The notes under the pieces are model-generated. The model worked only from the letters and a program-made list of their open reading frames with translations, was not told where the DNA came from and made no database searches. From Bacteroidota bacterium (GTDB lineage Bacteria; Bacteroidota; Rhodothermia; Rhodothermales; Rubricoccaceae), in the NCBI GenBank assembly GCA_022561755.1, contig JADFQN010000008.1, positions 1 to 42,559 on the forward strand: 42,559 nt of DNA, given 5' to 3'. Made by a program: the position numbers and the translations under genes. Of the stretch, positions 12,645 through 15,525 are shown one piece after another (the stretch's first letter is position 1; each line of letters starts with the position of its first letter).

Positions 12645-12887
12645 ATGAAGAACGCACTTTTGCGCGGTCTCGTCATCTGCGGACTCAGCCTTGGCCTCGT
12701 GGCCTTGTCTGCGTGCGCGGAACAGAGCGAGGTTGAACCGACGCCGACCGAAGAGCCCGTCATCGACGACGAGCCTGACGTCATTGAAGAGGAACCAATG
12801 ATGGACGACTCGACCATGGCCGACTCCACAATGATGGAGGAACCCATGGAAGAAGAGAGCGCTGAAGGCGACGCACCCGCCGAATAA
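12645..12887 (+). CDS. Small acidic lipoprotein
   Basis: An 80-residue protein: signal MKNALLRGLVICGLSLGLVA, lipobox LSAC at about 22-25, then a mature part made almost only of Glu, Asp, Pro, Thr and Met (EVEPTPTEEPVIDDE, MMDDSTMADSTMMEEP). It is probably disordered and strongly negative on the outer membrane or periplasmic face. It has no recognisable fold. The ATG at 12645 follows CCCCTAGAACC with no strong ribosome-binding site. A clear hairpin terminator follows. Confidence 0.72.
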   Translation: MKNALLRGLVICGLSLGLVALSACAEQSEVEPTPTEEPVIDDEPDVIEEEPMMDDSTMADSTMMEEPMEEESAEGDAPAE

Positions 12888-12905
12888 GCGTCTCTCGCTT
12901 CGATT

Positions 12906-12943
12906 AAAGAGCCGCTGCACCTCGCGTGTGGCGGCTCTTTTTT
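12906..12943 (+). terminator. Rho-independent terminator after the acidic lipoprotein gene
   Basis: The stem AAAGAGCCGC (12906-12915) pairs with GCGGCTCTTT (12931-12940) around a 15-base loop and is followed by a run of T. It lies 18 bp after the stop codon. Because the stem begins with AAA it may also terminate the recombinase gene coming from the other side. Confidence 0.85.
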
Positions 12944-12973
12944 GATGTCTGGAGAAACCGTGCCCAAGCCGCT

Positions 12974-13900
12974 TTAGACAGCCAGATAGCGCGCCGATGA
13001 GTCATCGGGACGGGCGTGGGTGTATTTGCTTGTCGTGGCCAACGATTTGTGTCCCAGAGTTTCCTTTACAAGATGCGCTGGAGCGCCGTGGTCGAGGGCG
13101 TGAGAGGCATGCGCATGCCGGAGCCAATGAGGGGAAATTGCTTTTTCAAGCCCTGCTCGCTTGGCCGCCGTCTTTACTACACGCCACATTTGTTGCCTAG
13201 AAAGCGCGCCGCCTTTGCGGGATCGGAAAACAGCGTCGTTTGCCGATCCATGCCCACAGCTAAGTTCATCTGTTTTGAGCTTATCCATAGCCTCCCACGT
13301 GTCAGCCGAAAGCAGAATGGATCTTGTTTTTTCACCTTTCCCCAAGAGTACAACCTGGCCGACAGGCCTTCCGTTTTCCTTTCCACGCTCCTGAACAGCT
13401 TTCCAATTGAGACTTGCTAGTTCTGAAACACGAGCCCCCGAAGCATAAAAAAGCCTGAGGAGAACTGCGTTGCGAAAGTTCTCTTCATGAACGAGAATAC
13501 ATTGTACGTCCGGTTCCGAGAGAATGCGTTCGGCAAGACGATCCGGAACCTTAGGTGTGGATACAGCGGCACCAACATTGTACGTCAGGTAACCGATCCG
13601 GTGGCCGAAACTGAAGAGACTCTTTAGCGCGGCAAGCTTGCGGGCAATTGTGGCAGGTACAAGGCCAGAAGCTTCAAGATGATCGGCCCAGTCCCAGAAG
13701 TGTTGCAATTTGACCCGACCAAGCGGCAGATCAACATTGTCGACAAACTGCGTTATATCCCGCCCGTAAGCTTCCTGTGTATTCGGACTCTTCCCACGAA
13801 GCCAAAGATTGATGAGGTGGATGTCGTCGTCTGCCTGTGAGGCTACTGGTTGCGCTTGAGAACGGCGATCGGGATCGTTATAAACTGCTATCTTGTCCAT
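12974..13900 (-). CDS. Tyrosine recombinase/integrase (Xer-like), minus strand
   Basis: A 308-residue site-specific recombinase. The N-terminal SAM-like core-binding domain spans about 27-110 (INLWLRGKSPNTQEAYGRDI). The catalytic domain has the full set of residues: Arg157 (SGARVSEL), Lys188 (GKGEKTR), His258 and Arg261 (HWLRHAHASH), His284 (LGHKSL) and nucleophile Tyr293 (TSKYTH). The start MDKIAVYN (13900) is chosen because longer starts overlap a promoter-region dyad. Base composition is lower in GC than in the neighbours. It is divergent from the hypothetical/recombinase operon and may be an integrase of an old element or a Xer paralogue. Confidence 0.9.
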   Translation of the reverse strand: MDKIAVYNDPDRRSQAQPVASQADDDIHLINLWLRGKSPNTQEAYGRDITQFVDNVDLPLGRVKLQHFWDWADHLEASGLVPATIARKLAALKSLFSFGHRIGYLTYNVGAAVSTPKVPDRLAERILSEPDVQCILVHEENFRNAVLLRLFYASGARVSELASLNWKAVQERGKENGRPVGQVVLLGKGEKTRSILLSADTWEAMDKLKTDELSCGHGSANDAVFRSRKGGALSRQQMWRVVKTAAKRAGLEKAISPHWLRHAHASHALDHGAPAHLVKETLGHKSLATTSKYTHARPDDSSARYLAV

Positions 13901-13928
13901 TTGCGAGGATTCTTGATCAACCGAATGA

Positions 13929-13948
13929 AACATAAGGTTAATTATGTT
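13929..13948. promoter_or_regulatory. Dyad AACATAA-N6-TTATGTT in the divergent spacer
   Basis: A perfect 7-bp inverted repeat with a 6-bp spacer in the 108-bp AT-rich region between the two divergent recombinase transcription units. The geometry fits either an operator or a tyrosine-recombinase core site (two inverted arms with a 6-8 bp crossover region). It overlaps an alternative upstream start of the minus-strand recombinase. Function is inferred from position only. Confidence 0.4.
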
Positions 13949-14008
13949 ACATTGCAAATCAGCTCTTCAGAGAGCGGCATCTAGCGGCCCAGCCCACATT
14001 CCTTTTCG

Positions 14009-14587
14009 ATGCAGAGCACCGTTGCCGGCCTCGCTGTTTCCAGTGCTGTCCATGATATGTTTGTGCGAGAGCCTGGATGGGGTTCAGTATTGGGTGAGAT
14101 CGTTTCGCGCATGAACACTGGGTACTATGATCAAGCCCTGGTCGACACTGTAGTGCAGAACTACGACGAGAAAGCACCATACACGGTCTATGAGGCCTAT
14201 TGCTTCGGCAGCATCATGACCGACCTCAGTGTAGGTCGTATCCTAAAGGCCGAAATCCAACTTGAAGGGTTTCCAGGGCCAAATGAGCATGTTGAACACA
14301 ACCAGAGCCTCCTAGACGATCTTCCTGCACCGTTCTATGGTGTCTTTCATGGGAACATGGATGATTCAGATGGTCACGTTGAGTGGTCTATACCGCTGCA
14401 GTTTGGACAAGCAGTGCCTGACGCGGGAATTCGCACTGGAAAGGTGCCCGCATGTAAAGTCCCGCTGGAAGTAGGTACAACGCATGCGTGGACTACGTGG
14501 TATCACCTTGCTTTCAATCTTGGGGTTGCACGCGTGCCATACAACTCAAATAGGATGACCATCATGTTTCGAGTAAGTGAAATATGA
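14009..14587 (+). CDS. Unrecognised protein translationally coupled to a tyrosine recombinase
   Basis: A 192-residue soluble protein that I cannot place in any family. It has no signal peptide or membrane segment. It is rich in aromatic residues and His (HVEHNQSLLDDLPAPFYGVFHGNMDDSDGHVEW), has two cysteines, and ends with a beta-like RMTIMFRVSEI. Codon use is more AT-rich than in the surrounding genes. Its TGA overlaps the recombinase ATG (ATGA at 14584-14587), so the two proteins are made together. It may be a DNA-binding or directionality partner, or simply a passenger; the sequence does not decide this. Confidence 0.7.
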   Translation: MQSTVAGLAVSSAVHDMFVREPGWGSVLGEIVSRMNTGYYDQALVDTVVQNYDEKAPYTVYEAYCFGSIMTDLSVGRILKAEIQLEGFPGPNEHVEHNQSLLDDLPAPFYGVFHGNMDDSDGHVEWSIPLQFGQAVPDAGIRTGKVPACKVPLEVGTTHAWTTWYHLAFNLGVARVPYNSNRMTIMFRVSEI

Positions 14588-15525
14588 GGGAGACAGATCG
14601 ACAGGCAAACCTGCTTGCCACCTATCTCGATAGCCTTAGATCCGCAAATACAATACGCGCATACCGAGGTGATCTTAAGGGTTTCTTTGGCACTGACACG
14701 ATTACTGAAGGAATCGTGCAAGCCGTGTCACCTGATGATGTGGACGAGTACCAAAAGGAAGCTGGGAGTCAGAATGTAAAAGCTTCGACTATGCAGCGGC
14801 GACTGGCTTCCTTGCGGTCGTTTTTCGCATGGCTTGTGTCAATGGACATATTAGAAAGCAATCCAGTTGGCATTGACTCAGGTCTTCATCGCCACCTGCC
14901 TCGCCTTGATCCAAAGAACACAACCATAGCAAGTCTCACTCGGAATGAAACGGAACAGCTCTTGGACGCTGTAGATCTATCCGAATCATCTGGCCTGCGT
15001 GACAAAACGCTACTTCTCGTCCTCCTGCACTGCGTTCTTCGCCGCTCGGAAGCCCGCGCGATGGACTTTGAGCACTTGAGAAAGGTTGATCGATATTGGG
15101 TGCTCGATCTTCCGTTTACCAAAGGCGGCACGGATCAGTATATCAAAGTGCCGGAGCACGTAGCCGAGGCCATTCTAGCTCACAAGAAACACTATGCATA
15201 CACCTCAGGCCCGGTCTGGCGCTCGCTGAGCCGCAACAGCTACGGCAAGCGGCTCTCAACCACATCGATTTACACGATCGTTCGCAAGACGGCAGAGCGC
15301 GCCGGTATCACCGCGCGGGTTGGCGCCCACACACTCCGCCATACGGGCTGCACACTGGCCATCGAATCGGGAGCGTCGTTGCAGCAGGTTCAGGCGCACG
15401 CGCGGCACAAAAACCTCGAAACGACGATGATCTACGTGCATCAGCGCGACAAGCTGAGCGACAGCGCGGCCGATTACATCGACGTGAGCAGCCGGGATCT
15501 GAACAGCTCGCAGGCGGACGAGTGA
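14584..15525 (+). CDS. Tyrosine recombinase/integrase (XerC/XerD-like), plus strand
   Basis: A 313-residue recombinase with core-binding domain at about 7-95 (LLATYLDSLRSANTIRAYRGDL) and a complete catalytic set: Arg153 (CVLRRSEAR), Lys180 (PFTKGG), His249 and Arg252 (AHTLRHTG), His275 (ARHKNLETT) and Tyr284 (IYVHQ). It differs clearly from the minus-strand recombinase. It overlaps the gene before it by ATGA and the lycopene cyclase after it by GTGA. The first half is AT-richer than the second. It could be a chromosomal Xer enzyme or an element integrase captured upstream of crtY. Confidence 0.9.
   Translation: MRETDRQANLLATYLDSLRSANTIRAYRGDLKGFFGTDTITEGIVQAVSPDDVDEYQKEAGSQNVKASTMQRRLASLRSFFAWLVSMDILESNPVGIDSGLHRHLPRLDPKNTTIASLTRNETEQLLDAVDLSESSGLRDKTLLLVLLHCVLRRSEARAMDFEHLRKVDRYWVLDLPFTKGGTDQYIKVPEHVAEAILAHKKHYAYTSGPVWRSLSRNSYGKRLSTTSIYTIVRKTAERAGITARVGAHTLRHTGCTLAIESGASLQQVQAHARHKNLETTMIYVHQRDKLSDSAADYIDVSSRDLNSSQADE

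Follow-up and report, generated by a model that had tools for sequence, protein, structure and literature searches.

A Xer/dif dimer-resolution locus of a Rubricoccaceae genome, probably in the course of replacement

Introduction

Dimer resolution matters for most circular chromosomes, and the locus described here raises the question of why two dissimilar tyrosine recombinase genes should point away from a short spacer that holds a perfect dyad, with a gene assigned to no known family coupled to one of them. The window analysed is the whole of one contig (G000:C131; 42,559 nt) from a draft genome, G000, of 3.06 Mb and 88% completeness. We consider it likely that this is a Xer/dif dimer-resolution locus in mid-replacement, in which a block of recombinase A, its site difA and a protein X stands where the site of the resident recombinase B, difB, normally lies. 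Ancestral, intermediate and finished states are all visible at one locus in one taxonomic order, presumably Rhodothermales, so that the order of events is testable, and the locus thereby bears on how lineages swap both a recombinase and its only site.

Layout and composition of the locus

The features of the region are as follows.

12645-12940, plus strand: left border, a small lipoprotein-like gene and its terminator, common to the same-genus genome G001
12645-12887, plus strand: small lipoprotein-like gene, 80 aa, acidic, lipobox read by eye
12906-12940: terminator of the small lipoprotein-like gene
12941-15000 (approximate edges): AT-rich, probably incoming block with A, difA, X and roughly the initial 140 codons of B
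12974-13900, minus strand: recombinase A (xerA-type), 308 aa, Xer-like tyrosine recombinase, ATG start
13925-13952, no strand assigned: difA, 28 bp, ATGAAACATAA-GGTTAA-TTATGTTACAT, core dyad at 13929-13948
14009-14587, plus strand: X, 192 aa, family unassigned by the libraries
14584-15525, plus strand: recombinase B, 313 aa, the resident Xer of the order

The first-pass annotation had described divergent recombinases, a 108-bp spacer (13901-14008) with the dyad AACATAA-N6-TTATGTT, and a 192-residue gene joined to its recombinase by ATGA, and all of this was borne out: the ATG of B at 14584 overlaps the TGA of X at 14585-14587. For A, an alternative upstream TTG at 13957 would read through the dyad. 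The region had also been called AT-rich, correctly, as GC is 0.50-0.52 across 13-15 kb against about 0.60 in the flanking DNA; GC3 is still shifting up to about 15.2 kb, past the approximate edge of the AT-rich block. The small lipoprotein-like gene is without a Pfam match and shares 76% identity over 62 aa with its G001 counterpart. A search for an RNA element in Rfam gave no match. A 19-nt inverted repeat (89%; 13401-13419 and 14927-14945, about 1.5 kb apart) spans difA and may be due to chance; it is the sole long inverted pair, and it falls within the coding regions of A and B.

Both recombinases are complete, share about 25% identity and keep the R-K-H-R-H-Y residues in translations read by eye, which agrees with their first description as complete and dissimilar. 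A matches Pfam Phage_integrase (2.7e-31), and PDB searches place it closest to XerD. Against the NCBIfam XerD (TIGR02225) and XerC equivalogs, A scores 186 and 172 bits and B 130 and 125 bits, under the respective cut-offs of 329.6 and 335.2, neither of which was reached by any Xer-like member tested. Further Xer-like genes are present in the G000 genome. We propose A as the active dimer-resolution recombinase.

A dif-type site linked to A

The dyad AACATAAggttaaTTATGTT (13929-13948; AACATAA-ggttaa-TTATGTT) lies 28 bp upstream of A. When up to three mismatches are allowed, the window holds one further match (three mismatches; shuffles average 0.19), and the search for further copies that had been advised found no second exact one in the assembled G000 genome (3.06 Mb, 88% complete). 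AACATAA-N6-TTATGTT is present in 28 of the 114 genomes of the order, G000 included, and once in each, while the reversed pattern, which served as control, was found in one genome. It had been held that a unique, unconserved dyad would tell against a recombination module; the dyad is indeed unique within each genome, which a dif has to be, but it is strongly conserved.

Nearly every copy of the dyad has an A homologue downstream, in most cases no more than a few hundred bases away. An exception is G014, where it adjoins another Xer gene; in some genomes of family f15 it lies 1-33 kb from A, and elsewhere A and the site are on separate contigs. In four f15 contigs (G054:C117, G082:C147, G088:C1 and G085:C161), 3-33 kb separates xerA from its dif, as if DNA accumulates there. 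Draft contigs break at the recombinase/dif junction in G051 (the start of C17, and C23:210-227), which may reflect strain variation.

Like dif, both difA and difB are laid out as 11-6-11. Their arms match on average at 9.5/11 positions in difA (17 distinct sites) and at 8.8/11 in difB (23 sites), and at 10/11 in the difA of the window, whereas the textbook E. coli dif, with the unlike arms of a canonical XerC/XerD site, scores 6; in these figures only the outer five arm positions are informative, because the search pattern leaves the inner six little or no freedom to vary. A search for canonical dif was uninformative, as it found a match in one genome out of 148 and missed every class relative chosen as a positive control. 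Judged by its layout, conservation and linkage to A, the dyad is a dif-type site, and the recombinase core site proposed in the first-pass annotation has thus gained a more precise identity.

Two alternative systems at one locus

B homologues have a different dyad, YGATAA-N6-TTATCR, upstream. This pattern is looser and has background matches, so that the evidence for difB is its position beside B. It was not found in the G000 assembly and is absent from the window even when two mismatches are allowed; as the genome is 88% complete, a difB may lie elsewhere in G000.

By hand count, strong A matches (E <= 1e-60) occur in about 42 genomes, strong B matches (E <= 1e-40) in about 58, and both in about a dozen. 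In most genomes only one of the two recombinases is present, together with its own near-symmetric site, and another Xer-like gene is also present in many B genomes. The neighbour sets of A and B overlap (SAICAR synthetase, an ABC transporter, a lycopene cyclase-like gene, rhodanese/ThiF and MiaA), and in family f5 they include a gene taken to be FxsA. On this synteny, A and B belong to alternative Xer/dif systems of one locus, and the idea of two unrelated integrases was rejected. Wherever the recombinase is of the other type, the two half-sites differ as well, so that a single recombinase probably binds each arm of its site, as in single-recombinase systems.

In f13 genomes, G020, G052 and G081 among them, A and B occur together, mostly in tandem; because these genomes keep both, coexistence can be long-lived, and the separate dyad of each recombinase in G081 (L117) indicates that two modules can coexist. 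A and B homologues lie close to each other at the f13 loci L088, L089, L090, L117 and L129. G014 also has two Xer-dif modules (G014:C184:49836-50834 and G014:C185:49103-50083), one of B type and the other with a Xer that is 28-30% identical to B and has AACATAAAGGACGTTATGTT just upstream.

Either Xer-dif pair lies opposite dnaA, at the GC-skew flip, in single-contig relatives. Measured from dnaA and expressed relative to genome length, the position of the recombinase is about 0.51 in G070 (A), 0.48 in G019 (B), 0.47 in G015 (B), 0.52 in G020 (A and B) and 0.50 in G031 (A and B); G032 is ambiguous, with two dnaA-like genes that give 0.40 or 0.47. GC skew was sampled at 20 points in G070 and G019. 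In G070 its sign changes in the stretch from 3.05 Mb to the end of the contig, which holds difA (3.136 Mb); in G019 it does so in the stretch from 4.29 Mb to the end of the contig, which holds difB (4.465 Mb).

Probable states of replacement

In the same-genus genome G001 the small lipoprotein-like gene is accompanied by difB and B, and A and X are missing. The DNA match between the window and G001 ends at 12856 and restarts at 15001, B is 40% identical to the G001 protein in its N domain and 87% in its catalytic domain, and GC3 shifts along the B gene; taken together, these observations suggest that the incoming block probably runs from A through difA and X into the beginning of the B gene. 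Among 40 B proteins, the discrepancy between N and C domains is largest in G057 (-24.9) and G000 (-24.7), the two genomes on which the anomaly rests, and the next value is -18.0. A retargeting of B to difA through an A-like N domain was considered and found no support, as the N domains of G000 and G057 are not A-like; the B profile in this comparison omitted G000 and G057 and took in the other B rows, which favours those rows.

Family f5 provides further states. The order in G057 is MiaA-B-A-difA-X-FxsA, with the A-difA-X block flipped relative to B. In G086, a member of that genus, the order reads MiaA, a 26-residue tail of B, A, difA, a 26-residue head of X and FxsA. The remaining f5 genomes have either MiaA-A-difA-FxsA or MiaA-B-difB-FxsA. 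The A tree follows host family, with G000 beside f15 at modest support (83/71) and G057 and G086 within f5, which fits a history in which A would have reached the window lineage from an f15-like source and f5 genomes would swap A and B locally.

The missing difB of G000, the difB-B arrangement of G001 and the relics in G086 together point to replacement. In the mechanism that we propose, the AT-rich block with A, difA and X would have taken the place of the resident B's own dif, A alone would bind both half-sites of difA and resolve chromosome dimers at the terminus, and B, its site lost, would be undergoing displacement. X would be a recombinase accessory that accompanies incoming modules and disappears once takeover is complete. 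The displacement of B, the activity and sufficiency of A, the part played by X and the way in which the block entered are all inferred from sequence comparison.

Protein X

The first-pass annotation recognised no relative of the 192-residue protein, and the libraries agree: X is without a Pfam or NCBIfam match and has no significant PHROG match. As a single query it matched nothing among genome contigs or viral contigs, and it was sought in phage records and found in none. A profile was then built from a 4-row alignment, as an 8-row alignment was too divergent for scanning. Only three of 395 genomes of the phylum have X, namely G000, G057 and G065, and in the last the contig ends within X and A was not found (contig break, C79 / C151). 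These two draft contigs of G065 break at a recombinase/dif-or-X junction, which may reflect strain variation.

Relatives of X with 21-28% identity occur in actinobacterial plasmids (phage-plasmids) and viral contigs. It had been asked whether X is always next to a recombinase, and in the profile search a recombinase ORF adjoins it in 15 of the 18 loci examined, which represent fewer independent cases, since L101 and L110 are the same contig, L099 is G057 and several viral loci are closely related. The sole adjoining recombinase in L097 is weak (47 bits), L109 has a 29-residue recombinase tail left beside X, and L103 and L111 have none. This neighbourhood in a second phylum supports the earlier suggestion of a recombinase accessory, the role of X itself being predicted from the genes around it.

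Invariant residues of X include N98, D119, D121, G122, W126, P152-L-E, G156, T163, H166 and R175. An AlphaFold2 model from 14 sequences has a pLDDT of 89.5 and a pTM of 0.85, and Foldseek finds nothing at E <= 0.001 in PDB or BFVD for this fold. The X family is a candidate Xer-type recombinase partner that is described by none of the family libraries searched.

It can be speculated, as a tentative and rather doubtful extension, that A-difA-X is a mobile takeover cassette which enters a resident Xer/dif locus and removes the resident dif, making the host dependent on the newcomer. X would then be a dedicated Xer partner, needed for establishment and discarded afterwards, and it would represent a protein family new to science, shared with actinobacterial phage-plasmids, whose predicted fold has no match.

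Alternative explanations

That A and B are instead a XerC/XerD-like pair acting on difA, with X as third component of a stable system that undergoes no takeover, appears unlikely. A, B and X are indeed linked in G000 and G057, B retains its catalytic residues in an intact frame, and the tandem arrangement of f13 genomes would suit a pair; however, most genomes have one recombinase singly with its own near-symmetric site, G081 gives each its own dyad, the N domain of B is not A-like, and G086 kept A-difA and lost B.

It is quite improbable that the A-difA-X block is a mobile element of an ordinary kind, or an IMEX, that has inserted at a resident dif while B goes on resolving dimers. The absence of the AT-rich block from G001 and the X relatives on phage-plasmids and viral contigs would be expected of such an element, but B's own site is not in the assembly, many related genomes have A as their one strong Xer linked to the terminus, and the window has one difA and no difB (two mismatches allowed), a single dif-type site that leaves no flanking pair to mark an element.

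We regard it as very improbable that the dyad serves the divergent genes as an operator or promoter element, or that it is one half of an invertible switch, because, for all its position between divergent starts and its operator-like inverted symmetry, A-only genomes keep it without X and up to 33 kb from A, its arms and 6-bp spacer fit dif geometry, and no second dyad or inverted repeats surround the module. The invertible switch that had been offered earlier was accordingly rejected: two inverted copies of a site flanking the segment are not present, and the relatives show cassette replacement.

Comparison with known systems

Several known systems resemble this locus in part. XerS/difSL of streptococci and lactococci and XerH/difH of epsilonproteobacteria each have one Xer and a linked dif-like site near the terminus (PMC5357621), a probable likeness to the present systems, for which the terminus position comes from relatives. 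They differ in recombinase lineage and site sequence, no X-type partner is reported in that review (PMC5357621), and in the present case a single locus accommodates two alternative systems. The XerL/dif system of Legionellales is likewise a single Xer with a palindromic dif near the terminus that homology cut-offs had missed (PMC9765430); it belongs to another order and has a vertical distribution, whereas here exchange is at the level of the locus. With XerC/XerD-dif, the present systems share the 11-6-11 dif and its CATAA/TTATG core, and A is nearest to XerD, but A and B fall under the equivalog cut-offs and the arms are near-symmetric. In Lactobacillus helveticus, XerS occurs alongside XerCD and was proposed as an intermediate between two dimer-resolution systems, with no dif found (PMC3025954), whereas here both site types and the empty and finished states are visible. 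A literature search that covered few subscription journals returned no paper describing the A/B Xer-dif systems or X.

The actinobacterial phage-plasmid modules (pCQ4, pFP4, pSAM1 and others) resemble the locus in that an X homologue adjoins a tyrosine recombinase. They differ in being element-borne, in having mostly same-strand pairs and in their recombinases. Few have a TAA..TTA dyad upstream: it is strong in L104 and L106 and weak (7-8/11) in L094, L097, L098 and L107, with none in the other eleven actinobacterial loci scanned. In actinobacterial viral contigs, tails of 27-29 residues from other tyrosine recombinases (85-93% identity) adjoin X at L107:3955-4041, L101:4095-4175 and L109:3364-3450, and they resemble scars of recombinase turnover.
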